Of a stretch of 64,000 nucleotides of DNA, positions 3,930-61,735 are shown in pieces. Location: the NCBI GenBank assembly GCA_021234155.1, contig JAJEKV010000001.1:19237382-19301381 (forward strand), given 5' to 3'. The notes beneath the pieces are model-generated. The model was not told the origin of the DNA and did not search any database. It saw only the letters and a program-made list of their open reading frames with translations. The position numbers and the translations under genes were made by a program. How positions within the stretch are numbered: the stretch's first letter is position 1; every line of letters begins with the position of its first letter. This DNA is from Isoetes taiwanensis (taxonomy: Eukaryota > Streptophyta > Lycopodiopsida > Isoetales > Isoetaceae).

Positions 3930-4510
3930 TGTCTGCTGAACTATGGTGAGTGTGATTCCATTCCGAATGCATTCTCTTGTTCTCTATTTTTCGTCCTCTA
4001 TTTTTTCCAATGAATTCTGGTTCTTTATCAGTGTCGGAGAAGAATGCTATCTTTTAACAGCAAACTTGAAGCGCCGAGTAGGCTTATGTAAAATCGAAGA
4101 TCTGAATCCAAATTCTATGTGTCATGGTGTTCCTCTTGGAAACAGTTTACGAAGATTTCCATTATAAACCGCAATTATGAAGATGAGGCTCTTCAAGAAG
4201 ACATCCCGGTGGCGTCTGGTTGGTGAAAGTGTGGGCACATTTGTAGCATGGCCAAAAGAACGTCTGAAAAAGGTATGTATATTTGGATATTCAAAAAAAA
4301 AAAGAATATATCATATCATCTGCGTGATGTTGTGAACTTTGAATTCTTTGATGGTCTTTAGCCAGTCTTATCAACCCCATGAAACTACACATTAATGAAA
4401 ATATGTAGTTTCTTGGGGTTGGTCATCTTGGCGGAGGGCATCACAGATTCAATGTTTTCGACATTGCATATAAAAAAAAAATAAACTAATGACGAAAAAG
4501 TATAGTGCAA
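3930..4510. other. Noncoding stretch in element A
   Basis: Only short open frames occur here and none resembles a known protein. An inverted pair around 4,365-4,430 (CAACCCCATGAAACTACA and TGTAGTTTCTTGGGGTTG) could form a stem of about 18 bp. Confidence 0.5.
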
Positions 4511-5036: not shown

Positions 5037-5172
5037 CACACGCGCCTGGCGCGATTTGTATAGAGCCGTATGAAATTGAAATGCCAAACTAAAAACGCGC
5101 CTGGCGATTTGATTTGATTAACCTAGTGGAAAACGTAACCCAAAAAAATAGAAATGCGCTGGCGTGATTTCT
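5037..5172. repeat. A-type palindromes, right of the small ORF
   Basis: Three copies: ACGCGCCTGGCGCGATTTGT at 5,039-5,058 (near perfect), ACGCGCCTGGCGATTT at 5,095-5,110, and TGCGCTGGCGTGATTT at 5,155-5,170. They decay progressively away from the ORF. Confidence 0.85.
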
Positions 5173-5206
5173 CCCATTCCAACATATTATTCTAACAAAA
5201 TGCATA

Positions 5207-5560
5207 ATGCAGAATGCAGAATGCAGAATGCAGAATTCAAAATATAAAGCCAGTATTAGTTCATTGTTTAGTTCATTGTTTTAGTTCATTATTTAGAGCA
5301 GATAGAGGAAGAGCTAGTGAAGATCTATGATCTATGATCATAGATCATAGATCATAGAGCAAGATCATAGAGCAGATATGATCTATGATCATTATTTACT
5401 TCATTATTTCAGATCATTAATTAGAACAGATAGAGGAAGAGCTCGTGAAATAGAATAACTTCATTATTTTAGATCATTAATTAGAACAGATAGAGGAAGA
5501 GCTAGTGAAATAGAATAAGAGCAGATCATATAGGCAAGATCACAGAACAAGATCATAGAG
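5207..5560. repeat. Microsatellite and short tandem duplications
   Basis: A (GCAGAAT)n run lies at about 5,210-5,238. It is followed by repeated blocks of AGATAGAGGAAGAGCTAGTG and runs of ATCTATGATCATAGATC, which are self-complementary. No coding signal. Confidence 0.8.
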
Positions 5561-6800
5561 CAGGATATTCTGATTCATGTAAAAGTAACTGATTAACTGA
5601 TTAAATTAATCGTGGTAAATATAACCGATGCATGTAAAAGTAAATAACATGCTTTACGTAAAATAACTAAAAAGAATGAGAGATACTAACCTATTTGTGT
5701 TCTGTACCCGAGAATTGAGCCTTTGACTTCGAGCCGAAACCAAAAGATCGAAAACCAAAGTAATAGCAGCTAGAAGCCGAGTAGCTTTAACACAAAAAAC
5801 CAAAGTTATTCAAAGTCAGAGAGATTGTACAGAGCCAAAAAACCTTGGAGAATTCTGCCTACAAACCTTGGAGCCGAAAACAACTTTGAGCCGAAAACCC
5901 TAAGCTCGAAAAGCCGAGTTTAAAGCATATAGAAGCCGAGTTTAAAGAAGATAGAAGCCTAAAAGTCGAGATTGATCTTGAGATAGAAGCCGAGAAGCAA
6001 ATAGAATTCGGATTGAAGCAGCATTGAAGTGTCTAGATAGCCGATTGAAGCGGATAGATAGCCGTAAAAGAAAAGCTCGAAAAGAGAAGCGAAAAGCTCA
6101 AAGCAGATAAACAAAAAAGCTCGAAGCAGAGATAGCGAAAAGCTTCACGTGAATGAAGTAGATAGATAGATCGAAAGCAGGAAATAAAAGCTCGAAAGCA
6201 GAATAATATAAAAAGCTTCGTAATGCAAAAAAAAGCAGAGTTGAAAGTGCACCATAAAAGTTATAAGAGTTCGAAAGCGCATTGAGTTTGAAGTTCGAAA
6301 GAGAGACGTAAAATTTGGAAAAGTGGGAAAGGGATTGTAAACCGGAAATAATAACCGCTTTAAAAATTTCAGTACCAGCGCCATAATAAGCGCCTTTGAA
6401 CATTTATTGCAAGGGTTATATAAGTTATAAGATTTAAGGTTAATAGTTTTAAGGTTTATAAGTTAAGGCTATTAGTTAAGGTTAATATTTTTAAGTTCAT
6501 AAATAAGGTTATAAGTTTAAAAGTTTATGAATTTGAATTTAGAAGTTTTAAGTTTTAGAAGTTTTAGGCTAAGGTTATATTTATTGAAGGTTAGAAGTTT
6601 TAACCTTACAACTTCTAACCTTAAAAGTGCTAACCTAAAAGCCTTAAAGTTGTTTTAAAGGTTACAACATTAAAGGTTATTATAAGTTAATATATTATAG
6701 GTTAACTTATTATTATTATAGATTAAGTTATTATAGGTTATTAAGGTTATTATTAAGGTTAACTTTCATTTAAGAACATGTTAGGAGATGTTATTTGGAT
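5561..6800. other. AT-rich intergenic stretch with simple repeats
   Basis: The first part (5.7-6.2 kb) is a degenerate repeat of GAGCCGAAAA and AGAAGCCGAG. The second (6.4-6.8 kb) is built of TTAAGGTTA and TTATAAG variants. The open frames at 6,098-6,403 on the minus strand follow from this composition and I do not treat them as genes. Confidence 0.6.
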
Positions 6801-6842
6801 ATGCTAACTTACTATAGGTTTTATTCATTTTAGGTCAATGGC

Positions 6843-7553
6843 ATGCAAAATGCTAAATCCCCCAAGGCCCCCAATGATGGTGATCAAGGCAAAGAAAAAT
6901 CCCCAACTAATGAAGATGACAAAGATGATGGGAAAGGAAAGGAAAAGACCAGAAATGAAAAGGATGAAGATGACAAAGATGATGGCAAAGGAAAGGAAAA
7001 GACCTCAAATGAAAAGGATGATGCCACAGGAAAGGAAATTGTACTTTATACTAGGGTCGATTGGAAAAACAAAAAGGTCAAGATCCTGCATGCATGCAAC
7101 AGAGAGGCAGTAGGAGAAGGGATTATTGTTCTAGCAGATCCTATCAATGCAGTGAATGATGAAAGATTAGGGGAGGACAGGTTAGGTGTGGCAATCTCAA
7201 AATTATATGACAATTGGAAGGAAAAGGGTTCAGGCAAACAAGAATGCCTAGCTTGTGTGAAGCAACTAGAGGTTCCAACTATTGTTGCATGGCCTAGGGA
7301 CAGTATTCAACTGGAGGGGAACTACACGTTTCCTATAGATGTAGAACCATTGTCAATAATGTTTACACAGTGTAGCAAGAGGCCACTTCCAACTTTCAAA
7401 CATTATCCCACCAAAAGATGCAAGTCGATTATGATTGTTCTCCGGGAAGCTATGATGAAGGTTAGAGGAGGTGAATGTTGTTGTTTTTCTTGTGTTAGAA
7501 TGTTCACAATGAGAGGAGTTGGTGGGAGCAAGAGCTACATATCAGGAACATAA
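6843..7553 (+). CDS. Acidic-repeat protein resembling the C-terminal domain of plant En/Spm (Ptta) transposon proteins
   Basis: A 236-codon ORF. Residues about 20-65 hold two imperfect copies of a charged repeat (DDKDDGKGKEKT followed by NEKD). Residues 66-160 read VLYTRVDWKNKKVK, then EGIIVLADPINAVNDERLG, and end IVAWPRDSIQLEG. This order (V-x-L-Y, then a D-P-x-x-x-V segment, x-L-G, then A-W-P-x-x-x-I-x-L) resembles the short domain often found in plant proteins annotated as transposase Ptta/En/Spm. The tail is cysteine-rich (CCCFSC). The start at 6,843 is the tool-like longest choice; another frame is open to 7,113 at the repeats. It may be the N-terminal part of the DUF7869 protein downstream or a neighbour gene. 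Confidence 0.45.
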   Translation: MQNAKSPKAPNDGDQGKEKSPTNEDDKDDGKGKEKTRNEKDEDDKDDGKGKEKTSNEKDDATGKEIVLYTRVDWKNKKVKILHACNREAVGEGIIVLADPINAVNDERLGEDRLGVAISKLYDNWKEKGSGKQECLACVKQLEVPTIVAWPRDSIQLEGNYTFPIDVEPLSIMFTQCSKRPLPTFKHYPTKRCKSIMIVLREAMMKVRGGECCCFSCVRMFTMRGVGGSKSYISGT

Positions 7554-10370: not shown

Positions 10371-12325
10371 TTCATCCAAGAACAAAAATTTTTTATAAGG
10401 GTTTAGAGAGTCATGTGCCTGCCGCTGTGCATGGCTGGCTTATTTGCATGGGTATCCATTCTTGTATAGCAAGCCTACTGCGGCTAGTTCATCACCAGGA
10501 TAAGTTTTTCTCTCAATGAAGGAAATGATCTGTTGAGCATATGCAAAATCATGATTTTTGAACCGAACACTCTATTTCTCAGGAACCGGCAATAGGGCTT
10601 CCTTCTTTCTAATCCCTTGTCTCAAACTCTTCTATTTATGCTCTTCTGCCTTTATCCTTCAGATGTCGGATCTGAATAATATATGGCTACGGTTTCTTCA
10701 GGCGCCTCTACAGATATGTGGAAAAACCGAGGCATATTCTTGAATTTGAGCAATTCCATCAGATTTTGCAACTGTAGATTACAAAGTAATTAATTTCTTA
10801 ATTTCGCCTCATTCCAGTTGACGCCTTGATCCTTTTGCAATCAGATCGCTCGTTATTGTCTTTTTATACCCAAAATGTGTCATATTTTTTCCACGAATTC
10901 ATCCGGGCATTGAAATACGGTCATGTGGGGCACATGCTTATGCCAGCTCAGAAGTTCTCCCGGAAAACTAAAAAACTCAACCCAAAAATCTAACCGGCAT
11001 TTTGTACCCAGCAGGAAAAAAATAGCTACGTGTCAATACGATGTAAGAGCACAGAAGAATCGAATCTTCGTAAAAAAAATTATATACATGTAGATTATAT
11101 TAAACGCATCGAGAATAGCACCTGAAATGCCTCTTATGAGCAATAAAAGCCTTGCAAATATATGACCATGTTGGCAATGCTATTTCGACTAAGAATATTT
11201 GAAACCCATTACAATATGATATTCATCTTGGATTAACATAGATTTTTAGTACAGATTGTGACGTGGGTTCCTAGAGGTTAACATGCATATACTCAATTGA
11301 TACTACCTTTTCCATAGGATGATTTCTACACTAATTGAAGGCCTATATAAAGACAATCTTCTACTTATATGTTGCAACATCGGGCATGCATTACCAAAAT
11401 TTTTGAACACCATAAAATCTTATTACAACTATTTTAGACTAACACAGACTCAAGATTAATACAAACCCCGTCTTATGCCTGGCAACACCGAAAGCACACC
11501 TTTACTAGTGGTCCTCTGAAATTATTCTCATTTGTACATCAATGCAGTTACTTAGGAGACCTGGAGATGAGTTTGAACATATAGTGGTAGGATATAACAA
11601 AGCTCATGGTCACAAATATTTAACATAATGAAAACAAGGTCACCACCTTGTCCTAGATGAAAATTGAAATAAGGCACACCGAGCAACACTAAAAATTAAT
11701 ATCTCTTCCAATGAAAAACGAGGAATACAACGCCTTGCAACCACATCAGAGGGCATCATCACCTACCGGATGAATGTCTATCTCTAAACCAGCACTCAGG
11801 ACAACAGATGATGACAACGCTAATGAAATTATACAACCATGATCACAAAACGAGCAATCCAATGACAATCGAAAAGGCATATGCTTTTGATGACAAGCTT
11901 GCCATAGAATTGTTTGGAAATATTGATTTCTTTCCAGACCCGCCATATGATGACATTTAATACCCTTATAAACTTCAAATAAAACCTACGATAAAGATAT
12001 ATTGCCTAACGTGCAATAAGAATAACAAGAAATACATAGGGCAAACAACAACCTTGTCAACTAGGTACAAACAACACAAATCAAAACCAAATCTCAAAAT
12101 GGCTATCCAATCACCTTGCCCTAATTTTCCCCCGCCTTTATTTTCTATAGCCTTTGGCATCCTTTTTGCTAGTTTTTTTTTTTCAAACAAAAAAATAACA
12201 TCTCCCATAACACACCCAAAACATCTCCCATAATTGGCTATCTTAACAATTGTCATGGGTATGCATTGAATTAAGGGTACAATCCCAATTGTTCTTGCAA
12301 ATCCTCATTCTTTCTAGCTAATTAA
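10371..12325. other. Spacer between elements A and B; no genes recognised
   Basis: All open frames are under 95 codons and none resembles a known family. The ORF at 11,975-12,256 on the minus strand has hydrophobic runs but no context. I see no repeats of note. Confidence 0.5.
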
Positions 12326-12348
12326 CAAGATTGCGAATTAAACGGGAG
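12326..12348 (+). repeat. Terminal inverted repeat of element B (left)
   Basis: CAAGATTGCGAATTAAACGG plus GAG, preceded by TTAA. It pairs with 20,438-20,460 in inverse orientation with five mismatches in 23 positions. Confidence 0.75.
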
Positions 12349-12705
12349 CAAATCATCGAAACGAGAGCAAAAGGAATATTCCTCAAAGATTCCCCTTTTT
12401 TTTACAAAAAAGGGGATAAAACGAGGTTAAAAAAAAAAAGGATGCATGAAATTCTATTTTGACCCCCCTCCCCCCCAAATGACTAATTTTTTTGTGCAAC
12501 GAAAGAATTGACTTTTTTAAAGTGTCACTTTTCTTAGCAAATAGAATGTTCTTGAAGTATGTTTTCAGAGAGAAACACTAATTTCAGAGGATAAAATATT
12601 TAACAAAAAAATTAAGTAAGTCTGTAACTGAAACTGTAGTATTCTCAAAATTTGAAGATAGAATCTTCATATTCACATGCAAAATTTACAGTCTTTTTCT
12701 AAGAC

Positions 12706-15700
12706 TCAGTTATGTACAAAAGTGTGAGGAGTGATGAGAGAGGGATCCAGGATGTCATCATATTCATTTATGCCATCCTCATCACCTTCACTTCTTTCAC
12801 TGTCACTCGAGGAAGTGCTTGAGTTATCTTCCTCATCATCACTATCAACAGATGGTGAAGCATTGCCACCACCACTCCCTTCTTCATCCTCTTCTTCGTA
12901 ATTACAAGCTTTTTTAAGCAAATTGATAGTCCTCTGGCGTAGACGATTGTCAGATTTCAATTTAAAATCATAGCACAATATAGTCACGTCATTAAGATTC
13001 AGCTCATCCCTACAACCCATCTTCTTGGACTTTCTCCCTTTTCCTTGGCTTCTCATTTCTAACTCATATCTACCTTCAAAAGCATTTTCTGAGCGTGTTG
13101 CAAGCCAATGAATCTTGAGTTTAGTGACTAAGCCTTCCTCTTTGACTGTGTCAAGCACTTTTTCTATCCAGAAAGGTCGACCTTTGTCATCCTCCTCAGT
13201 TGGAAGAGCAATCAGCATACCTTTGGTAATTTCTGTGATATTACCATGAGGCTCATTCCTGCGTCTTGGTCCGAGGTACATGACTCGATCCTCGTCTTCT
13301 TCTACTGCAGGTGCTAATGTAGCATTGCTTGGACCTGCTTGGTGCTGGGGTTGATGGAAGGTGTTAGGCATTGAAATGATTCTTGCAACTGTCTTAGAGC
13401 TATATTTTGTACAATAATTTTCTGTTCGAGAAAGAAATTACTCCACCACATCCGATCTTCTTCTAAGAAGTACTTAAAGCCTGAGGAAATTCCATTTTCA
13501 ATGGCTTTTAAGGATGACACTGGGGTACTTTTCTTCTGCTTGGACTCCTTAGGATTTTTGAGAGGAAGTTGCTCAGCACGTTCTATGAATGAAGTGTCTG
13601 GAATATATTTAAGGAAGCGTAATCCCTCTGGTGGACTCCAGTCCTTAGTTGTGGTATTCTTCTACCCCTGTAAGAAGCTTTGACAATCCTTCAAGTAGAA
13701 CTTGATGTGATGTTGAAAGGTGAGATTGAACTTGTTCACAGCTTGTTCTCTGTCTGAACGTTGAGAGAAAACAAACTCTCTGAAATCAGCAGTCTCTTTA
13801 AGAAGATCGATCACTGGAGTGGGAGTGTAAGAATCTTCAATAATTCGAACTAAAGTAGGAACAGAAAAAGCCTTCTTCCTTCTAAGGCGCACAGAAAATC
13901 TTCGAACATTTGGTCAATCTGATCACGAGTGTGGCCTACAAGTAAGAAACCGAGCTTCACTTTTCTAAAAATCCCTAGCTCCACTAACATGGCACAGTAC
14001 GCAAAGAGTGTTTGATTCTTGTTCTCCCTTGTAGTATTGTCAAGTTGCAGGTAAAGCACTGGTGGTAATTGCTGTTGCTCGCACAGGACCTTGTTAAGAA
14101 TTGTAATTGTGAGGTTCGGGTCACCATGCAAGTTTGGATACGTCAAAAATACTTTGCACTTTAGACTTCCTTTGAAGACCATAGCTCCTACAAGGTGGAC
14201 CTTAACAAAACATTCCTCTGGCACATCTTTAGGAATGTTCAAGAAATGCGGTAGAGTAGTTTTTTTTTGGTCCATTCCATCAATCACAACAGACATATAT
14301 TGCAGTGGACGTTCAAGAGCTTTTTTTCTGTGCTTGGCAAGCTTTCTTCTCTCTGCTGCTTGGTGTTCACGATGTCTGGCAAGGTTCTGTTGCACAATAT
14401 CTGTAGAAGAAATCAGGTCAAAGCATTTTCTTTAAAACAAGTGAGAGATTGGAGAACATGAGCTTACTTCTTTCGACCTCTGTCTTTGCAGTTTCTCGTT
14501 GACTCTTTAATTCTGCACACCTTGAGCAAACAGACATTCTATGTCTCCTGGGAATTTTCACAAGACCGAATTCACTTTTCCACAGTCTGGTGAAGTGTGA
14601 GTAAGGGATGTGCTGAAACCGAGTGCAAGTCTCTTTGTATTCATTAAAAACATCTTTTTTGGTGATGTTATCTGTCAAATGATACATGTTGCTGTTAGGC
14701 AGCTTCTCACATGTTTCTCTAAAATATTTCTCCATCCATGACACAGCAGCAAGGGCATGCATGGTTACAACTCTTCTTGGTCCACAATGATCATCAATTG
14801 CTGGATTTTTGTCCAGTCTTTTGTGTATTCTGGTGGACCCTAAACGGTGGACAACCATAAAGCATTTCTGGCAAACTTCTTCACGGTTAATGTAGTGCAA
14901 GAAGGTGATGCGGTCTGGTCTTACATGATAGGCCAAGTAGGCATTCTGGTCAGCCAATGTCATTGAACTGTAGTTGTCTCTAATTGCTCGTAATTTAGAC
15001 ATGTTAAATTTGTTGATACAACCCAATGAGCAGCATTTAGTTCTTAAAAGTCTTCTCATTTTATGCTCGTCCATAAGGTTTCTTCTTCTTACGGAGGAGC
15101 ATGCTCTCAAACCATAATCCACCTTGAATTTCTTGGTGGACTGGCTGGAGAATGTGTAATCTCGTTGCACCTCTCTGGTGTCTTCATCTTCTGAAGAGAG
15201 TTCTACTCTGGGGGTGACCTCCTCTACCCTTAGTGGTGTGCTTGTAGAGGAGAACAAACCACGTGAAGCTGTACCCGGATAAGGCGGAGGTACAGTGTTG
15301 AATGAAGGATATGGGCCACCATATGAAGTGCCAGCGAATGTTGTTGCAGCTTCTTCACAAGGAGTTCGTTCGAACATGTCTCTTACAGCCAACTGAAATT
15401 CTACAAACCCATGTGTCACGGTTGTGTGAAGAGGAGTAGATGCTGCAAGGTCGTCTTCATTTGTAGTGAAATCGTGGTGGGAGAAGCGATGGAGAATCTC
15501 GCGGTCTTCGGAACCTGCTGTATTCCTTGTTTGTGTAAGTGAAGAAGGAGAAACTACAAATGGCTGAGGTAGTCTGTTCCAAAAAATTTGCTGAGGTCGA
15601 GCCTTTGTAGTGTCGGGGGATGGTACAAATGGTGGTGGAAGATTGCTACATTACAATGTGTGAGGTGAAATTTGTGAAAGGACTTGGAGAGGGTTGGAAA

Positions 15701-15882
15701 GGTGGTGGCAGTCTACTAGTTACTGGACTGGGAGTGTCTTCGAGAAGCAACAAAAACCTTGCCGAGGTAGGAGTTGAAGAAGCATCCCCGCCTTGTGTTC
15801 CCTCTGATGTAGAGGTACTTGGGGAAACAAATGGTGGTGGAAGTTTGTTTACGAAGCGGTTAACCATGTTAAGCAACTGCAA
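12706..15882 (-). CDS. DUF7869-type transposase-like protein of element B
   Basis: I recognise the DUF7869 family, whose conserved acids look like an RNase-H/DDE integrase core. N-terminal part (15,882-15,420): proline-rich, repeated LPPPF(V/Q). Next come a Cys-containing region with CCSLGCINKF, VCQKCFMVVHRLGSTRIHKR and the pair CSRCAELKSQ. A 67-nt GT-AG intron lies at 14,401-14,467. The core has VVIDGMDQKKTTLPHFLNIP (first D), LYLQLDNTTRENKNQ (second D) and LVGHTRDQIDQMFEDF (third motif). Then KFNLTFQHHIKFYL, a F-W-I-E-K-V module like that in element A, and an acidic serine-rich tail (DSDDEEDNSSTSSSDSERSE). Frame changes occur near 15,650, 13,880 and 13,375, and a TAG at 13,662-13,664, so this copy is damaged or carries sequencing indels. 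Likely role: transposition of element B at TTAA. Confidence 0.75.
14401..14467 (-). other. 67-nt intron in the element B DUF7869 gene
   Basis: The donor GTAAGC starts at 14,467 and the acceptor TTCTACAG ends at 14,401. Splicing joins VER with NIVQQNLARHREH in frame. The presence of a spliceosomal intron argues against a bacterial contaminant. Confidence 0.75.
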
Positions 15883-15924
15883 AAAATTGTGGACTTGTCA
15901 GTAACTCAAAAGGCAGTTGGACTA

Positions 15925-16170
15925 AACATATTCGAGAATACAAAAAACTATTCCAGAATACTTTTTGGTGTGCAGCATCCTATTCCAGAATACACTTGTC
16001 CACACTGTTTGGACAAGACGTATTCCACCTCACATAGAAAAACATGACTGACAGTGGCCTACCTTTAAAAAGGAAATTTGAGCGCCTCCGTTGCGTATTC
16101 CGCTTTCAGAGTTTTAGTCGTCAGCCCGAGCGCCTTCCGATCTATATTGCTTTGCTGTATTCCGATTTAC
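15925..16170. repeat. Degenerate B-type palindromes and half sites
   Basis: Diverged copies of the B palindrome occur at about 15,928 (ATATTCGAGAATAC), 15,949 (CTATTCCAGAATAC) and 15,980 (CTATTCCAGAATACACTTG). Half sites GTATTCC follow at 16,019, 16,095 and 16,158. They lie between the two divergent genes. Confidence 0.75.
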
Positions 16171-16252
16171 ATAGCGAAAATAATAAACAGGTAAGCATGT
16201 AAAGTACATAGTACATCCTTCGTGTGCTTGCTGATTTCCTTTTGAAGGCCAA

Positions 16253-16489
16253 AGTGTATTCCGGAATACACTCTGCCCTTCAGTCGAAGAGCAGAGTGTA
16301 TTCCGGAATACACTCTGAGTGTATTCCGGAATACACTCTGCCCTTCAGTCGAAGTGCAAAGTGTATTCCGAAATACACTCTGCCCTTCGACTGAAGTGCA
16401 AAACACTTTGCCCTTTGACTGAAGGGCAAAGTGTATTCTGGAATACACTTTGCCTTCTTGTGTGAGCAAAGTGTATTCCGGAATACACT
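16253..16489. repeat. B-type palindrome array between the divergent genes
   Basis: Six copies of the 20-bp palindrome AGTGTATTCCGGAATACACT or close variants begin at 16,253, 16,295, 16,318, 16,360 (one change), 16,430 (one change) and 16,470, with a half site near 16,400. Between them CTGCCCTTCAGTCGAAG and its complement alternate, so larger inverted repeats also form. The copy at 16,292-16,317 is a perfect 26-bp palindrome. The array occupies the shared promoter region of the two element B genes. Confidence 0.95.
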
Positions 16490-16776
16490 TTGCCTGTCTC
16501 ATTGAAAACGCTTGTTGTTTTTAGCTTAAGCATACCACATTCTAGCTTAAACAGACCACTTTTTAGTCCAATTAGGGCACGAAAAATGGGGTTTGAGCGA
16601 TAATATTTTTGCTTTTTTTCCTGTTTTTTGGTGGCCTTTAGGGCGCAAGATTAGCAAATTTTATTCTGGAATACAGTTTTTGTCCCATTTCATGTCTTAA
16701 CAGTGCTGTGCCAAACGTTTCAGTGGCAGGCAAGAAGTAAGCAAGAGAGCATAAAAAAAAGCTCTGGCCACACCCA
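16490..16776. promoter_or_regulatory. Upstream region of the element B ParB-methylase gene
   Basis: It is AT-rich and holds one more diverged palindrome copy (TTATTCTGGAATACAG at about 16,661). I infer that promoter elements lie here only because the coding region starts at 16,777. I see no certain TATA box. Confidence 0.35.
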
Positions 16777-19700
16777 ATGAAGCAGACTGCTGACACGGAC
16801 GAGCCTGCGATTTACGAAAATTTTCAAACGCAGTGGTTCGTAACCAGGGGTGCGGGCGAAAAATACAGCATTCTCACATTCTTACACGTTTGCAAGAGCG
16901 CTGGCAATAAACGGTACGCGGAATCCGAGTTCCTCAACCTCGGGACAATAAAAGATGTCTCCGAGGTTGCCGGACAAGGAGGTCAGGTGGGGAGGATATC
17001 GTTCAAGACCTCCCAGGGCTACATCGTTGTAGACATTGCAACCTTTAGAATTGTCAGCGTGCAACCACCGGCGCTGTACAAATTCATTTCACATTACCGG
17101 ACAAAATGTAGCCTGGCTTCAATTATTAGACAGGTTTGTTCTAGTACGAGCGAGGACTTTCCTGTCAGTGAGTCTGAGAAAGAAGAAGAAGGTGGAAAAT
17201 CACCACCTTCCCCAAGCACTTCTGGGAGGGAATGAGATGAAAGACGGAAGAAGAAGTAGAGGAAGAGGCCCCAGAGCAGCCAAAGAAACTTAGCAGGCCA
17301 AGAGACACCATAGCCGCTAAGGAGCCAAAGAAGCGGAAAGTACATCAGCTTGAAATTGTAGAGCTCCCCGAGAAAAGCACAAAGAAAAGAAAGGGCAAAG
17401 GAAAAGCACCCGGGGTAGCAATTAAAGAAAAGAAAGTTGATAAGACCTCCGAAAGAATGGAGGTAATAAATAGAGATAAATTTGTACAAGGGGTGATCTA
17501 TCTTCCTGTGACTTGCATGAGGCTGCCCCCGAAGAATGAAGCTGGTGAAAGGCCACTTCAGGTTCGAAAGATTTATGCCGACCACTTAAGGAACCTGAAG
17601 GACAGAATCAGGAGCAATCCAAATGCTCATGTGGCCCCAATAGTTGTCCTTGTTGACAGGGATCAATGCACATCCCCCCAGAACTATGACAGAGAAAATG
17701 CAGACACATACACTCACTACGTCCTGGGAGGAAACCATAGCTTCAAGGCAAGAAGGCAGCTGTACAAAGAGAAGAAAAACCCCAGGTACCTCTCCGTCCT
17801 GTGCGCCGTTTACTGTGGTCTTACCGATGAAGAAGCGAAAATCATTGCCAACACCCACAATGCTGACAACGAGTACAAGCTAAAGATGAGCTTCGTCGAC
17901 AAGATTCGCTTTATGCACAGGGAGTATATTATATTTAAAGAAAAATATGGAGAAGATTTAAAGAAACCAGCATACTCTTTAGAACTGAAGGAAGCGTGCG
18001 TTGTGGAGTGCTGCCTCAAGTATGATGAGGCTAATAAACGGCAGTCTCTCATACCACATGACAACTGGTTTCAACTAGCCTTCAGAGACGGCAGAGTAAG
18101 TTTTTTTTGTATTCTGGAATAACCTTATAGCCCTTCCACTGACCTCGTTCTTTTCTGTGCAGATATGGGACCTCCAAAACGAAATTTGTACCATGTTCGA
18201 GAGAGGTGAATTGAAAAGTAAAGGAAAGGTCGCCGAAAAAAAGAAAGGTTCTGACGTCCCTAAGAAAGAAATGGCGATAATTGTTTGAGAGAAATGCAGG
18301 GCTTCAATGACATGGACTTACTCAAAGGCTCTGCGAGAAGGTCATAGATAAAGAATTTACTCTTGAAGAAATGTCAAGGAGCTGCACAAGTAAAGCACGA
18401 TGAGAACATTTGTTTGACTTTTTTCTTTGGTAGTACTGGCGTATTCGAATATACATGGGCTCAAACATGTTGGCCAAAGTGTATTCGGAATCTGATTTAA
18501 CCGGCGTGTAAGCCAAAGTGTATTCCGGAATACACTTTGTTTGTTGTAAAAAACTTACTGCCTATTGTAAAATGATCCCGTTGTTCCTACTAATATTTTC
18601 TTCTTACTAATGTTGCTCTATTGTACAACCAAAAAAACATCATCACATGTCAAACATGCTTGATGGAACAGTTAAACATTGACAGCTGGGAAAGGTGTAA
18701 AGAACTTTACCCCATCGCGACCTCGGACGAAAGGATTATTCAATACGCTCCAAATTTTGAAGGCTGGGTATGTTGTGTAGTTTTCTACTTTTTCTTTTTT
18801 CTTGTTACAAAGACAAACTGTTTTGCAGAGCAAAAAGAAAAACAAGGACCTGTCAGAGAGCTTTATGCATCTGGTCAGGACAGCGCGAGAGGAGAGGACG
18901 CTGGCAGACAGGCGTGTTTTGGATAATGAACCCTCCGAGTACGAACGGTTTACTATGTTCGATCAAAATAACCTGTTCTGTATAGTACACAGTGATTGCA
19001 CCAAATTAGCCGAAACAATAAAGCCCCAAGATTTTACCTTGGTAATAGCTGACCTTCGTTACGGTTTTAAGCTCAAAGACAACCGCTACGACGACCAGCC
19101 ATTTAAAAACTCTGAGTTTAACGCCTCCGTCGACGGTATTAAGCAAATTACCACGGCAAAACATTGGAGGCTGGTTGTATTTCACTCAAGCATGCAATCC
19201 GGCCTTGTGGAAGCCAGTTTCAAGAATCATTTTGGTTCCCCTACGCAAGCTGGTTATGAAAATCTGGTTTGGTAAGCTCTTATTCTGTAATACATATGTG
19301 CTTTTGTTTTCTTTACGTTCTTTTTCATTTAGTTACAACTGTTAGTTTCAATTAGTTAGTTAGGAGTTTCTATTCTGGAATACGTTTATTTCGGCTGTAC
19401 TGAAATCCTTTTTTATTTTTTTGTTCCTTAGATATAAAACAAATATAAATTACCACGGCGGAGGCCCTAGACTGTTAAGTAAGGTCGAATATCTCCATGT
19501 CGCTTATTGGAGTTTCGATGGCAAACATACAATGGAACACTTCAACACAGCGGCGTGGCCAGAACTTCTCAAACGTGTTGGAGTCTCTAGCAGTGTTGCA
19601 GAAGCTGCAGGACCCTAGTGCACAAGGAAGAATAGTGAATCACTATCAGAAGCCACAGAAGTTGATTAACCATCTTCTGGACATGTTCTCACGTCCAGGA

Positions 19701-20108
19701 GATTGGGTGCTCGACGCATTTTCTGGCTCTGGTACAACTATTGCTTGTGCACTTAAGAAGGGCCGTAATTGTGTAGCTGTTGATATTGACAAGGAGGCTG
19801 TAAACTTCATCAAGATGAGACTTTCTGCCTTACCAAATCTACCAGATGAGAATTAAGAGTTGGGGGCAAAGTCTAATTCTGATTTTGCTAAGATGACATC
19901 TTCCGAGATACAGCCTCCTTTTACAAGCTCCTTGGAAGACGAAGCTACGTTTGCAGAGCTGAAAGAAGTTGCTCTAGCTACAATACCGGAACAGGATCCT
20001 ACTACCAACACGGAGAAGCCTAAATCACCAGAGAAAGGTGAAAAGGTAGAATCTGAACAAGCAGAGACCAGCAAGAAAAATGAAGAAGATTTTAATCTAG
20101 ATCTCTGA
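16777..20108 (+). CDS. ParB-like domain fused to a bacterial-type DNA methyltransferase-like domain, element B
   Basis: N-terminal domain (16,777-17,235) contains QTQWFVTRGAGEKYS; its function is unknown. A charged linker in another frame carries PKKRKV, a classical nuclear localisation signal. The ParB-like domain (17,457-18,095) has IYLPVTCMRLPP, VRKIYADHLRNLKDRI and the loop LGGNHSFKARRQL. Introns lie at 18,096-18,162, about 18,390-18,671, 18,768-18,828 and 19,272-19,431. The methylase half has DFTLVIADLRYGF where D-P-P-Y is expected, then HVAYWSFDGKHTMEHFN, KPQKLINHLLDMF and the SAM site WVLDAFSGSGTTIACAL, CVAVDIDKEAVNFIKMRL. This is the beta-class motif order. An acidic tail continues in frame after a TAA at 19,854. 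Frame changes near 17,235, 18,286, 18,330 and 19,560 show damage or sequencing indels. The catalytic motif is altered, so activity is doubtful; element-DNA binding is a reasonable inference. Confidence 0.75.
18390..18671 (+). other. Intron of the element B methylase gene with a perfect palindrome
   Basis: The coding similarity stops near 18,389 (before GTAAAG) and resumes at about 18,672 with LNIDSWERCKELYPI. Inside are a perfect copy of the B palindrome (18,517-18,536; 26 bp palindromic at 18,514-18,539) and two degenerate ones (18,431-18,450 and 18,479-18,490). Splice phases do not match perfectly, so the exact ends are uncertain. Confidence 0.5.
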
Positions 20109-20437
20109 CGGATCATATGTTGTGGCTATTGATTGACATTTATTATTTATTGCCATTATTGATGTAACACAAAAACAGTTATAAAATTATTATTATTATG
20201 TTTACTAAATTTGTGCTTTTTGTACATCCACCTATATAAAATTACGTATTCATGTCTCAATTTTGCTATTTTCACATGCTTCACTCCAAAATACCAAAGT
20301 CGTGTCCAAAAAATACGGCAAAAATAGGCCAAAAAAAAGCTGATACTCCTGAAACTTTAAACCTCTCTTAAAAAAGCCTAATTTTTAAAGTGACGTGTTT
20401 TTTCTAAAGGAATCTTTGAAACGGGAGTGCTGCAACA

Positions 20438-20460
20438 CTCCCCTTTAATTTGCAACAGTG
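20438..20460 (-). repeat. Terminal inverted repeat of element B (right)
   Basis: Read inward: CACTGTTGCAAATTAAAGGG plus GAG, followed outside by TTAATTAG. The left end is preceded by CTAATTAA, so the flanks are also complementary beyond TTAA. Confidence 0.75.
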
Positions 20461-20464
20461 TTAA

Positions 20465-23445
20465 TTAGTCATGTACTAGTAACAGTGCCTAGAGTTGCTG
20501 GGGATTACTTGGGAACCTGTAAAATTATAAGTGAACAATAGGAAAATAATACAGTAATAACTCTGCAGTTAATTTTTTATAGTTGATATCTTGACAATTG
20601 CACATTGAAAAGGTAGTACATGGTTACTCATAAGAGATCCAGTGTTTTGCTTTGGTGGGTACGTGGTGAGTTAAAGAGCAATTTCATCCGTAGGATCTTT
20701 TTGTAGACTACATTTGGAGTGAATCTCCTGTTGTTTTATAGTAGTGCTCCTTGTCTTGAGGTGTCTTGGATATAGATCTTCATTATTATGCACCTTGAGT
20801 TGAGAATGCGACATAGATCTGGCCGTGCGTGAACTAGTATTGGCAGGTAGATGCCAACAGAGGCCATGAACTGCCCTTGTGGCTATCTATATACATATAA
20901 CACGTCCATTTGAAATTTAATGGTATATATGATGACATGTCCATTTAGTCTTTTCAAATGTCATATTAAAACAAGGTGATGCGCACGGAGGGTTGCCCTC
21001 CATGGCCGGAGGTTGAAGTGGCTTAAATCATACTTGAAAGTCATATTTTTACAATCAACAAAAATTGCTATTTTAAAACATTGACATTTTGTGTTGGTGA
21101 TGCCCACAGTATTGCAACTTTTTACCTTCCTCTAAATAAATAGGGTTAAGCAAAGACCTAGCATCCTGATGCTTGGAACTAACTGGAGCATGCACATTAC
21201 CTTGACATAGGGATTTTGACTTTTAGACTACGATGGATATTTTTGCAAGGGAAAATGCAGGTATAGCACATATAAGACATGGTACATGCTAGGTTATTTC
21301 TGCTAGGCCAATTAACGTTATTCTGTTGAAATTATTTCAAATGGTAATATTCTCTAATTTCGTTTTTTCACCGCCATGGTCCATGGATTTCTCACTTGAT
21401 TTTGGCATGGATCTGATTTTACATTAAATCAGTAAGAGGGTGACCTACATGGCACTATGTTGACCTACACATATGACATCATGCTAGTTAGGTTATTCTT
21501 GCTAAGCCTAACCATGAACTGGAATTTGGAATTCGTCCCAAAAGTATTTTCTGACAACTAACATTTGCAAGGAAAATAATGGACCCATTGTTTTCCCTTG
21601 TATTGTTCAGAATGAATGAAGCATGGCACATGTAGAACTTAAATAGCAAGATGGCATGTCGTTAAACCTTAAGGTGTGTCATGTTTTATATTTTAATATT
21701 GGATGATTGTCATGTTTAGACCTGCAATTTATTGTTGCATGATGGCAACGATATGTTGAGTAGTTCTAAGTGATCCTTACATACCATGGGTTAGGATCCA
21801 TGGTGTAGGACTTCGCTTGCTCCATGCTTTAAGTCCACTACACTTGCACTTTTCCATGAGGCAACAATTTGCATGGGTTCATGTATGGGTTCCATCGAAC
21901 AAAATTAGCATGCAACATCAGGTCCTATATCTACCACTAATATCATTTTCCCATGAGAATACATCCTGCAATTTATCGTGGCAGTGGTTCCAGAAAATGC
22001 AATGGCTGCTTAGTAAAGTAGTGTGAATATCAAACTTGCAATAATAGTTTGAAATTTGCAAAAGTTAAAGCCTAAGACATTAAAATTTTAAATGTAGCTA
22101 CAAAATAAGTCAAAGGATCCTATTTGAAAAAAGATGAACACCCAAATTGCAAGGTGCCACCATGTTGCTAGGGCAGCCATTGATTTAATATTTTAGGAGG
22201 AAGCAAGCTAATATTTCAATAGTATTATTTTGTCCTCAATTTAGTGAGCATGGCTGATCGTAACAAAATTGTAAAAAGAAAATTATATCAAAAGCAGCAC
22301 CTTTAACTCGGGATTGCTAGATGTTTTGGATCCTTATTCTCCTCTTTATTGACTTTTGACCAAATCAAATCCTTCTGCCCCAAATCTTCTAAAACTATAG
22401 AAAGATATGTTTGCTTCTTGGATCATTACCAAAAGAAACGAGCTTCCAGGCTGTTCGTTGTTTGCTTCTAGGCTTTGAAGAAATGCCTTCAAGAGTCACA
22501 GAACCATATAAGTTCCTCTGCTTAATAGAAAAGCTACACCTTGAGTTTTTCTTGTCACCTCCCCTTCAAGGGCATTATGGCTGGTAAATGGGCAGGGGAG
22601 CAGGGTTGCAGCTTCTTGCCTGAGTGCAATTCTTGCTTCTGCGTCTATTTCACGTTGTGATGCCGTGTACATTAGGCCAAGGTTACCACTTGGACAATAT
22701 AGCTAACATCAAGAGAGTCATAATTTCACACTAAAGCGAACAGTATCCCAAAATAGGCAAGCCAAGCAAGAAAAATGACATCCCTTATAATTTAAAGAAA
22801 TTCAAGTGTAATCATACTATTACAACTCCCCAATGCAGATTGCCTATAAGAGGCACCTACAGAACCTCATCATGTTTTTTTTGTCTAGAATAAATTAGTG
22901 CCATCTATTGATGCTGGTTTGTTATAATGCTTATGAGTGCATCCAACAAATTGGCTTCAACCTGATAGGAAACTTCTATTCAAATAGTTCTCCAACAAAC
23001 TGGAATCTGATAATAAATCTACCACTGAACATAAATATGAAGCACAGGGCCATAAGAGTATGCAATTCTAGATCACAAATACCTATACAACTATCTTGAC
23101 TTAAGTACTATCAAATGTGATACGGATGCTTCTGTTCAGCAGGTTCCTATTCCCTTGCTGAGGGTCGGAAAGAATGGCCTATGAAAATGGCGCATGCATT
23201 TTCTTTGTGAGCTCTCTGTAAATCATGTCTCGCTTGATTCTGACAGCCAAGCAGATGATTTTTGAACCAGTGGATTGCCCCTATCAGAGCATCATGCAGT
23301 ATCATCCGTGCATCTTTAACTTAAAACCCGGTGCTTTTTGCCCATCGCCCACATGCTTAAAATGCAGCAGAGATTGCATTCAGAACTAAAGACATAAAAA
23401 AGTTTGTGCAAAGATATAAAGGCATATTTCTCCTTCTCCGTTTTA
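20465..23445. other. Noncoding stretch; motif shared with two other sites at its start
   Basis: No gene recognised; all open frames are below 70 codons. The first 50 bases (TACTAGTAACAGTGCC, GTTGCTGGGG, TTGGGAACCTG) match sequences at 43,716-43,765 and, in the first part, 54,191-54,220, so a repeat end lies here. Confidence 0.5.
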
Positions 23446-58990: not shown

Positions 58991-60319
58991 GCTATGGCGA
59001 GGAAAAATATAAATTACCCTGCCAATTTTTGTCCTTTAGCTTCACAAAAATAATATAGTGACTCTATTCCATTAACACGAAATGACAAAACATAAAATAT
59101 GGAAACACACCTTGGAGACAACAGAGGGTAACCCTTTGTGGGCAGCATCTTGTTTTCTCCAACAACCATCACGTCATTTTGGGGACTTCATTGTGCCATA
59201 TGGCAAGACCACCACAACTACCTCTCCGGGAGTTCTCCATCTATCAAGCCCTTATTTTTCTATGCTCTATTCTATCATCTGTTAGCTTATGCTAATGCTT
59301 CTCCTTTTCTCAAAGGGCTGCTTGATGCATGTGAGACTGTATGAATATTTTTTTATCTCCACCCTATGGCACAAACTTTTATTAGAGCTAGTTGTTGTTG
59401 GATTGTGTCTCTAGTGCCATCAGTTCATCCGTTGACACAATGGTGTTGGAGATTTGCAGATGTGCTTACAACTTCTGCGTGGTATAATGAAACACGATTA
59501 TTGATGTGGAAAGAATTCCAAAAAAATTCCTCCTTTTGAGATGGTATCATGCAATTTGACAAAAAGTAGTCTTTGTTCTTTCTCCTGTGCCACAAATAGT
59601 GGCTTCCCAAGTTTGGGTGGTTCATGAGAATGTTAAGACAGAGCATGTGATGCATTCTATGTATAAAATCCTTCTTGCTGCAAAGACATTGGCCCGTCAC
59701 AAAAGTGGCCTTTATTGCTACCCGTAAATCAACAAAAACCAGTTTGCAAATGGGTTTGGGATATCTCGAGTTATTAGTTTTTGGTAATCCATAGATGTGT
59801 TCCTGGGACAATATGGAAAAGAGGAAATTTCATTTGGCTTCCGCATGGATCATCTAATCAATTTGGAGAAGAAGAAATCTCTTCATTTTCAAGGGTAATA
59901 GATGTCCTGATGCTCAAGTGCTCATTGAAGCTAAGCAATGCATTGTCTTCAAGAGAAAAGAGATCGACTCCGGCATCAATAATGCTTCTTGAGACAGGAA
60001 TTCTGTCATTTGAATTCTAGAGCTACAAAGTTCAGTATCATTCTTAGCCAGGAATATGGGTCACCGAGGCCCAAACTGGTACGTCAAGTATAAAGACTTC
60101 AAGAGAAATGGCATCGGATATGGAAGGAGGATGGATATCAGACCTAGAGGATTGGGCTAGGAGGATGGAGTGTGATCTGTGGACAGAGGCGGATAACAAG
60201 ATATGACAAGGCGGAAAGTCGCAGTTCAGATTTGGCATCACATATGGCACTTGTGCATACACATATTAGAACTTTATGCAAAGACTTGGGAAATTTGTTT
60301 TTTTCAAAATGTTTTGAAG
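58991..60319. other. No recognised genes
   Basis: A 128-codon frame on the minus strand (59,425-59,811) matches nothing I know. The piece ACTTCATTGTGCCATATGGCA (59,187) recurs at 63,230. Confidence 0.4.
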
Positions 60320-61735
60320 AAAATGTCTCTAGTTTTGTTCTTATATGCTGACGATGTCAACCTCCTGGCCTATACTCCAGAGGACATGCAACGTCACCTG
60401 GATGCTCTTGACACTTTTTGCCGATTCACTGGCATGCGAGTTAACTTGGCCAAAACTAGGGTGCTGCTAGTTTCATCATCCCGTCAGTCAAGGCTTCCCT
60501 CATTCACTTACCAGGGACAAGATGTAGAGGTGGCTCTGACCTACAAGTACTTGGGGATCGAGTTCTCTATTACCACCCATTGGGATGCTGCCATCAGGTT
60601 GCGGGTCACGGCGGGTTGGAAAGCACTATACACCATGCAAAACAACAGCCACAAGGCAGAGTTGTATGCCTGGGGCCACCAGTCACACTTGTTTCGGGTC
60701 TTGGTCGAGCCGGTCCTTTTGTATGGGGCAGAAGTATGGGGTCCGGTGATATCCCTCAACACCTTGAATGACCTCGAGTAGGTGCAGAAAGCCTTCTTGG
60801 CATGAGCCCTTGGGGTAAAGTCCACAGTTCCATACCAGATCCTACTCCAGGAGACAGGTTTTCACCCCCTTCAACGGGCTGCATTGGAACGCCATATCAT
60901 TTACTTCTAGAAGGTGGTCGCTATGGGCGATACACGTTTGCCCAACCTTGCTTTTGGCCATGGCGATGGGTCCCCACGCGTGAAAGCCTGCTGGAAGGAC
61001 AAGCAAACTTAGTGGTTCTCACGCTGGGGTGTACAGGCAAACAGATGCGTACATGTAAGGACAAAGAAAGATCACAAAGCACTTAAGTTGTACCTAAATG
61101 CTACTTTCCTTCGCAAGCTCTGGGATGCAGATGCTTTGACGCACGTTAAGCTGGCACACTATCAGCAGCAAGTCAATCCTAGACTCACGAGAGGCCCACA
61201 CCAGTACTTGTCCACCCAGTTGTCCATGAAGAAGCGCAGACTTATAGCTTCCATTCGCACGGGTGCACATCGCCTCCGCATTGAGACAGGACGTTGGGCT
61301 CGAGAAGCACGAGAGCAAAGGCTTTGCCAGTGTTGCCACCAGGGCGCCATTGAGGATGAATGTCATGCCCTCCAGATCTGCCGAGCGTTTGCCCATATCC
61401 GAGAGCGGTATGTTCGATTACTAGTGCCTGACCAACCGTTGCGTGAGTTATTGAATACGGCATCAGTGGGTTTGTTGGGGTCATACCTCCAGGAGGTTAT
61501 GGATGCACGGACTCAGTTGTGTCCTCCGGGACGGTATTGAACTGTTCTATACAATTGTACAGCGTGCCAGCATACTTATTACTGCTAAGGTTTTTCCCTT
61601 GAAAACCCTTTGGGGCGGGGGTTTTTTAATCCTATCAGTAATACGCTTGTTGCTCTCTTTTTGTTTGGGTCCCATAGGCCAATCGGTCTCCGTGGACGCT
61701 AAAAAATCTATTCTATTCTATTCTATTCTTAGAGA
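60320..61735 (+). mobile_element. 5'-truncated LINE (non-LTR retrotransposon)
   Basis: The reverse-transcriptase catalytic box LFLYADDVNLLAYTPEDMQR (60,338) is followed by FTGMRVNLAKTRVLL, YKYLGIEFS and VEPVLLYGAEVWGP. After one stop and shift come GVKSTVPYQILLQETGF and RAALERHIIYF. The C-terminal part (61,088-61,540) has RTGAHRLRIETGRWAREARE and the zinc-finger-like CQCCHQGAIEDECHALQIC. The 3' end is a pentamer run TTCTA/CTATT repeated about five times (61,706-61,730), a common LINE tail. The RT fingers, the endonuclease and ORF1 are missing, so it is a dead 5'-truncated copy. Confidence 0.88.

Follow-up and report, generated by a model that had tools for sequence, protein, structure and literature searches.

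A transposon of Isoetes taiwanensis with a DUF7869 transposase gene, a divergent ParB-methylase gene and family-specific palindromes

In a 64,000-nt stretch of the genome of Isoetes taiwanensis (the window, to whose positions all element coordinates refer), we identified a complete copy of a DNA transposon, 8139 bp long (12324..20462). The element carries two divergent, interrupted genes: a DUF7869 transposase-like gene on the minus strand and a gene on the plus strand that joins a ParB-like domain to a DNA methylase. Between the genes and in the introns of the second lie palindromes whose sequence is specific to the element family. That the transposon exists and possesses both genes is established. 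Judging from sequence comparisons, we give an even chance to the fuller reading of a self-recognising and self-marking transposon of the Sola1 type, whose ParB-methylase would read the palindromes of its own family.

Boundaries and insertion sites

The ends were placed by aligning 20 left and 20 right ends and by comparing full copies. The element runs from AACAAGATTGC... to ...GCAACAGTGTT; AACAAG starts 19 of the 20 left ends (the remaining one is truncated), TGTT terminates all 20 right ends, and the flanks diverge beyond the element ends. These boundaries replace the exact ends given in a preliminary description of this DNA, whose inverted termini were confirmed (31 nt, 84%, arms 12318-12348 and 20438-20468). 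The element is abundant. Among 1716 first-look candidates for the left end, at least 40 scored places show 93-100% identity over 800 bp or more of the left 975 bp, and at least 40 scored places were likewise found for the right end (1532 candidates) and for the start of the methylase gene (438 candidates). In keeping with a plant host, the genome is rich in SBP domains, a plant-specific family that was found in none of 14 control genomes.

The window copy lies between duplicated AATT tetramers (12320..12323 and 20463..20466). Duplications of 4 bp and of varying sequence flank all 15 counted two-ended copies, including L054 and L055, whose ends are slightly altered. They read AATT (window), TTAG, AGGC, TATT, ATAT, ATAC, CATT, GAAG, TTAA, ACAT, GACC and GCTA; in diverged families, CTAC and ACTT were read off the printed ends of two, and CTCC was found in a third. 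The C1043 copy (L001/L021/L041) has the flanks of the window and was excluded from a second counting. L042, L044, L047, L050, L051, L056 and L057 were left out, having at most one recognisable end in the stretch fetched.

The insertion itself is visible at L052 (C976), which interrupts an open reading frame, presumably of a pentatricopeptide repeat gene. The frame is open across the joined flanks, and these match paralogous places without the element. A single TTAA was read through cleanly in three of the four paralogous empty sites compared (L083, L084, L085; 97% identity). At the fourth (L086, 91%), the whole query was matched, with no gap-free alignment at the junction. The comparison of empty with occupied sites thus upholds the insertion of a discrete element, cleanly at three of four loci, and fits a 4-bp duplication, not the fixed TTAA of the preliminary description. 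The window copy appeared to be bounded by TTAA because its duplication AATT adjoins the terminal AA of the element. An element of the TTAA-targeting piggyBac, Kolobok or Sola3 kind, as that boundary implied, deserves practically no credence and was rejected: TTAA does flank the window copy when the ends are set 2 bp inside, and L052 has a genuine TTAA duplication, but 14 of the 15 duplications have a tetramer other than TTAA, and the empty sites contradict it as well. Sola1 transposons make target-site duplications of 4 bp, the length found in all counted copies. The element is most likely a cut-and-paste DNA transposon of the Sola1 group, a likeness judged by duplication length and anatomy alone.

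The divergent gene pair

The transposase-like gene occupies 12709..15867 on the minus strand (exon pieces T1-T6). Its core (13665..14401) belongs to DUF7869 (Pfam PF25273, expectation value E = 1e-37; 130 bits against a curated cut-off of 26), as the preliminary description had it, and contains the motifs VVIDGMDQKK, LYLQLDNTTRENKN and LLVGHTRDQID. Other copies and families keep these motifs as VVIDGMDQKK (VVVDGMDQKK in family C), QLDNTTRENKN and LLVGHTHDQID, and we read them as putative acidic catalytic motifs. The transposase would recognise the AACAA-type inverted ends and make the 4-bp target duplications, for which we infer DDE catalysis. Searches of the PDB with the core returned nothing significant. 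The C-terminus (12709-13371, minus strand; KGMLIALPTEEDDKGRPFWIEKVLDTV...LKIHWLATR) is also present in families C and D. It matched no Pfam family, and its resemblance to an SH3-type chromatin-binding module is our assumption.

The plus-strand gene starts with a fast-evolving N-terminal domain (16777..17229), which is followed by the ParB-like domain (17268..18095, loop YVLGGNHSFKA), the linker exons M2 and M3 (18163..18767) and two methylase exons. The first of these (18829..19272) contains motif IV, which reads DLRYG here and DLPYG or DIPYG in relatives; the second (19433..20105) contains motif I, DAFSGSGTT. The methylase noted in the preliminary description is clearly supported (Pfam N6_N4_Mtase, E = 5.5e-18). 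In relatives, D[LI]PYG precedes DAFSGSGTT, and motif IV before motif I is the order of the beta class. A profile of this part matched nine PDB sequences at E ≤ 0.01, including CcrM, MboIIA, RsrI and DpnA, which we take, in part from their names, to be adenine enzymes. The ParB-like part, conserved between families, matched the ParB-like phrog_1033 (E = 7.7e-4) and otherwise gave weak matches. Across families, both methylase motifs (IV and I) and the ParB-like loop are retained. The N-terminal domain is the most variable part: it falls to 42-45% identity in L052 and L054, whose ParB-like part keeps 77-81%, and to 18-22% in three places of other families, and it showed no known relatives in a Pfam scan.

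Purifying selection is detected on both genes. Pooled over 11 copies, the ratio of nonsynonymous to synonymous substitution rates (dN/dS) lay at 0.42-0.57 in the transposase exons and at 0.07-0.19 in those of the methylase, values biased low because of the filters and some saturated dS values. The analysis used translated matches that reached 72% identity and 25 residues, with stops and frame breaks skipped. L041, which duplicates the window locus, was dropped, and so were pieces T1 and T2 of L047, which are themselves duplicated. From these ratios, we take both genes to have been under selection as proteins.

The pairing of the two genes was followed in the best 150 of 9910 DUF7869 and the best 150 of 1444 N6_N4_Mtase first-look candidates; a place without a partner in the other best-150 list says nothing on absence. 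Among these, 24 pairs lie within 20 kb of each other, compared with a chance expectation of about 0.54 pairs. Twenty-two are divergent and 4.9-12.3 kb apart, and two are not divergent. Of the co-location proposed in the preliminary description (divergent, within 10 kb, bounded by TTAA), the divergent linkage held, the spacing reached 12.3 kb, and the TTAA bounds were refuted. Six pairs were cut out; five match all twelve exon pieces, and L053 lacks M3 and M4. L058 and L059, the best and fourth-best DUF7869 matches, were picked without regard to the methylase, and both adjoin a divergent ParB-methylase gene. Compared with the window, L058 and L060 are 49% identical in the ParB-like part and 37-62% in the methylase, L059 and L061 hold broken ParB and methylase pieces (29-48%), and a fourth family with the same divergent layout shows 46% and 41-43%, respectively. 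The gene pair therefore persists in four diverged families, with methylase pieces 29-62% identical to those of the window. This linkage substantiates the earlier proposal that the element is a DNA transposon with its own DNA-modification gene of bacterial type.

Copies of the window's family (A) differ in how their parts are related. Among the 12 copies with all parts, the transposase had a median pairwise identity of 91.2%, the ParB part one of 78.8% and the methylase one of 76.5%. The closest relatives change from part to part: L049 and L056 are 95.5, 78.5 and 74.0% identical in these three parts, and L055 and L056 are 94.1, 96.2 and 94.5% identical. The level of identity changes where the palindrome arrays lie, at about 3990-4170 and 6190-6270 of the element. 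These sequences suggest an exchange of element halves between copies, with partly different histories of the two halves. Two copies are peculiar in other ways. G000:C1043:10006305-10014470 (L041) holds the element within the flanks that it has in the window; the two copies are about 94% identical from end to end, and this locus is either a segmental duplicate or a second haplotype of the window locus. In L051 (G000:C907, about 51.13-51.14 Mb), a distant DUF7869-like element (24% core identity) lies inside the ParB exon of a family copy (reversed-strand 5150-7100), where it seems to have inserted.

Family-specific palindromes and their possible reader

The element contains the motif TATTC..GAATA 12 times; the other 55.9 kb of the window lack it. 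Nine occurrences lie between the genes (15929..16673, densest at 16250-16495), where the preliminary description had seen a palindrome array; the family specificity had escaped it. The other three are in methylase intron 1 (18110..18121, at the same place in relatives), intron 2 (18521..18532) and intron 4 (19371..19382). The full palindromes are 14 bp long and have the form [GC]TAT-N6-ATA[GC], with a six-base centre that differs by family: GTATTCCGGAATAC with near variants in family A, GTATAAATTTATAC in B, CTATGCGCGCATAG in C and GTATGAATTCATAC in D. Exact matches in 18 A-family stretches comprised 70 palindromes of type A and none of types B, C or D. The B element contained 20 of type B only, the C element six of type C only, the D element five of type D and one of type B, and L063 two of type D and one of type B. 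Palindromes of type B, C or D were present in two or more copies at 16 of 20 further DUF7869 places, which had been picked as probably non-A. Genome-wide counts, which cover types A and C, gave 3720 occurrences of GTATTCCGGAATAC and 1551 of CTATGCGCGCATAG; each reversed control gave 0, and about 6 are expected for a random 14-mer.

The sites are confined to particular parts of the element. Of the 200 A sites located in 17 A stretches (L047 excluded), 197 fall in the gap between the two genes or in an intron of the methylase gene. There were none in exons and none in the transposase span; this last zero says less, because the transposase has little non-coding sequence. The corresponding fractions were 21/22 for the B element, 4/6 for C and 5/5 for D. 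The lone site in intron 1 keeps 10-11 of its 12 core bases between three subfamily copies, compared with 11-19 of 38 other columns. Spacings below 70 bp cluster near whole helical turns: 68 of 112 at 41-42 bp in A, 44 of 97 at 30 or 32 bp in B and 9 of 11 at 40-41 bp in C, values that are descriptive, as the copies are related and some arrays may have been entered more than once.

In the reading that we favour, the second gene would encode a protein of three parts: the variable N-terminal domain, the ParB-like domain and a beta-class, N6-adenine-type DNA methylase. This protein would bind the family-specific arrays, both those of the promoter region that the two genes share and those within the introns of its own gene, and would mark adenines at the bound palindromes. 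The marking may protect the expression of the element's genes from silencing by the host, as VANC does for VANDAL elements by another chemistry. To our knowledge, VANC is not a methylase, and we know of no use of an adenine mark for silencing in plants. An extended version of this reading is tentative, and we hold it with clearly less than even confidence. In it, the transposon lineage would have captured a prokaryotic-type ParB-adenine methylase that would read the family palindrome as an address and write an adenine mark there; address and protein would change together when families split, making up an independently evolved, VANC-like system.

Several observations weigh against the favoured reading. 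The window copy is damaged, with broken frames in both genes, and the DLRYG at motif IV means that its methylase is probably dead. The ParB-like part matched DUF6551 weakly (E = 0.0094 or worse in four of five members), and one member scored better against the unrelated IgA0_D2 (E = 2.8e-4). Pfam scans of this part gave no match to PF02195, a PDB search with it gave no ParB, the best match being the repeat protein k-cTRP5 (E = 8.6e-4), and it had no match in the phage collection. AlphaFold predictions from single sequences, made for the ParB-like exon and the DUF7869 core, were not used, having predicted local distance difference test values of 41 and 42, respectively. The N-terminal domain is a candidate for the specificity domain, but it varies greatly within family A, dropping to 42% identity, and the palindrome is unaltered there. 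None of the four palindrome types occurs at four of the 20 further DUF7869 places surveyed.

The transposase could equally be the palindrome binder. If the sites were bound by it, or by a regulator formed by it, the methylase would act elsewhere or generally. Transposons often have internal transposase-binding repeats, the transposase and the palindrome also change together between families, and the family C element has one site near each end. Against this stand the distribution of the sites, which favours the gene gap and the methylase introns in all four families and avoids the transposase span, and the similar layout of VANC arrays around the gene of their binding protein. We consider a transposase-bound palindrome unlikely, though the most serious of the competing explanations.

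The ParB-methylase might also bind the palindromes as a self-limiting switch that represses both genes, or that couples transposition to replication through hemimethylation. Dam methylation ties the transposition of bacterial Tn10 to DNA replication in this manner, and palindromic sites would be hemimethylated after replication. The divergent shared promoter region and the symmetrical sites at near-helical spacings (41-42, 30/32 and 40-41 bp) are typical of cooperative regulators. The high copy number, rough as the figures are (1444 methylase and 9910 DUF7869 first-look candidates), argues against strong self-limitation without excluding it, and we regard this switch as improbable.

It is very improbable that the arrays have no protein reader and are by-products of tandem duplication, or hot spots of recombination or hairpin formation. 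Tandem units are present, the identity between copies shifts across the arrays, and the halves of the element look exchanged. However, each family has one sequence and the families differ, the exons of the 17 A stretches are free of sites, and the single intron-1 site of family A lies outside the arrays and is nevertheless conserved between subfamilies.

Relation to known systems and surroundings of the element

The class of gene pair, a ParB-like/methylase gene with a transposase gene, is already known; the comparisons that follow refer to the accessible parts of the cited papers. Sola1-1_Ec32 of Ectocarpus, a DNA transposon of 21.5 kb, carries a gene for a ParB-like and N4C/N6A-type methyltransferase protein opposite to the transposase strand, and its authors propose that the protein binds and modifies its own transposon, citing earlier green- and red-algal cases of such a pair (PMC12477816). 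The Isoetes element has the same opposite-strand companion, judged by anatomy alone, although such a companion is not a general hallmark of Sola1. It is unlike Sola1-1_Ec32 in that the latter is brown-algal and larger, and the two are likened by description alone; no word in the main text of PMC12477816 starts with 'palindrom', and its accessible parts mention no family-specific code.

In the Arabidopsis VANDAL elements, each family has VANC motifs of its own, which are found in introns and upstream regions and vary in step with VANC (PMC5735166). The Isoetes element likewise has short family-specific arrays in its non-coding parts, upstream and in introns of the gene of the putative DNA-binding protein. 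The systems differ in that the VANC motif is a 9-mer in one orientation, VANDALs are MuDR-type elements, and VANC removes DNA methylation, whereas here a mark would be added. Pfam scans of the element's proteins named no VANC-type family.

Phage fusions of a ParB fold with an N6_N4 methyltransferase show the same two-domain combination on mobile elements, although they are prokaryotic (PMC12704722). The methylase part of the Isoetes element is about 24-26% identical to phage genes (best E = 8e-3), and the top phage match is a stand-alone methylase gene; the ParB part matched none. Viral contigs searched with single proteins yielded no relative, and a search of them with alignment A1 yielded one methylase-only match of 24% identity. 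No relative of the ParB-methylase was found in genome contigs by scans that need short, near-exact peptides and that distant relatives can escape. Fungal DNA transposons with TET/JBP genes (PMC12730594) and dinoflagellate and charophyte retrotransposons with DNA methyltransferases (PMC5890265) also carry their own DNA-modification enzyme, but act by oxidation of 5-methylcytosine and by C5 methylation, respectively; the accessible parts of these papers describe no family-specific palindromes. Among open-licence papers, we found no account of these palindromes and none of such a pair in a land plant. Within the reach of these searches, three things are new: palindromic arrays that are specific to a family, the scale on which the element occurs in a seedless vascular plant, and the persistence of the pair in four diverged families.

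The surroundings of the element contain pieces of other kinds. Directly to its left, an open frame on the plus strand (11961-12233, with YCLTCNKNNKKYIGQTTTLSTRYKQHK) resembles what we take to be a piece of a GIY-YIG endonuclease, perhaps a Penelope-type remnant. Reverse-transcriptase-like frames lie further to the right on the same strand (60197-60781 and 61013-61540; YADDVNLLAYTPEDMQ...) and presumably belong to an element of the long interspersed nuclear type.

These results touch on two open questions: the reason for the presence of DNA methylases in some transposons, and the existence of targeted N6-methyladenine in land plants. The proposed reading by the ParB-methylase makes a precise prediction family by family, with four palindromes, four protein variants and thousands of sites in one genome. 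Since the families examined are largely without each other's sites, they provide built-in negative controls. The Isoetes taiwanensis assembly was built partly from Nanopore reads (PMC8566536), so raw signal able to show adenine marks may already exist. If the proposal is true, the element would represent a second, independently evolved transposon self-recognition code beside VANC, with a different chemistry.

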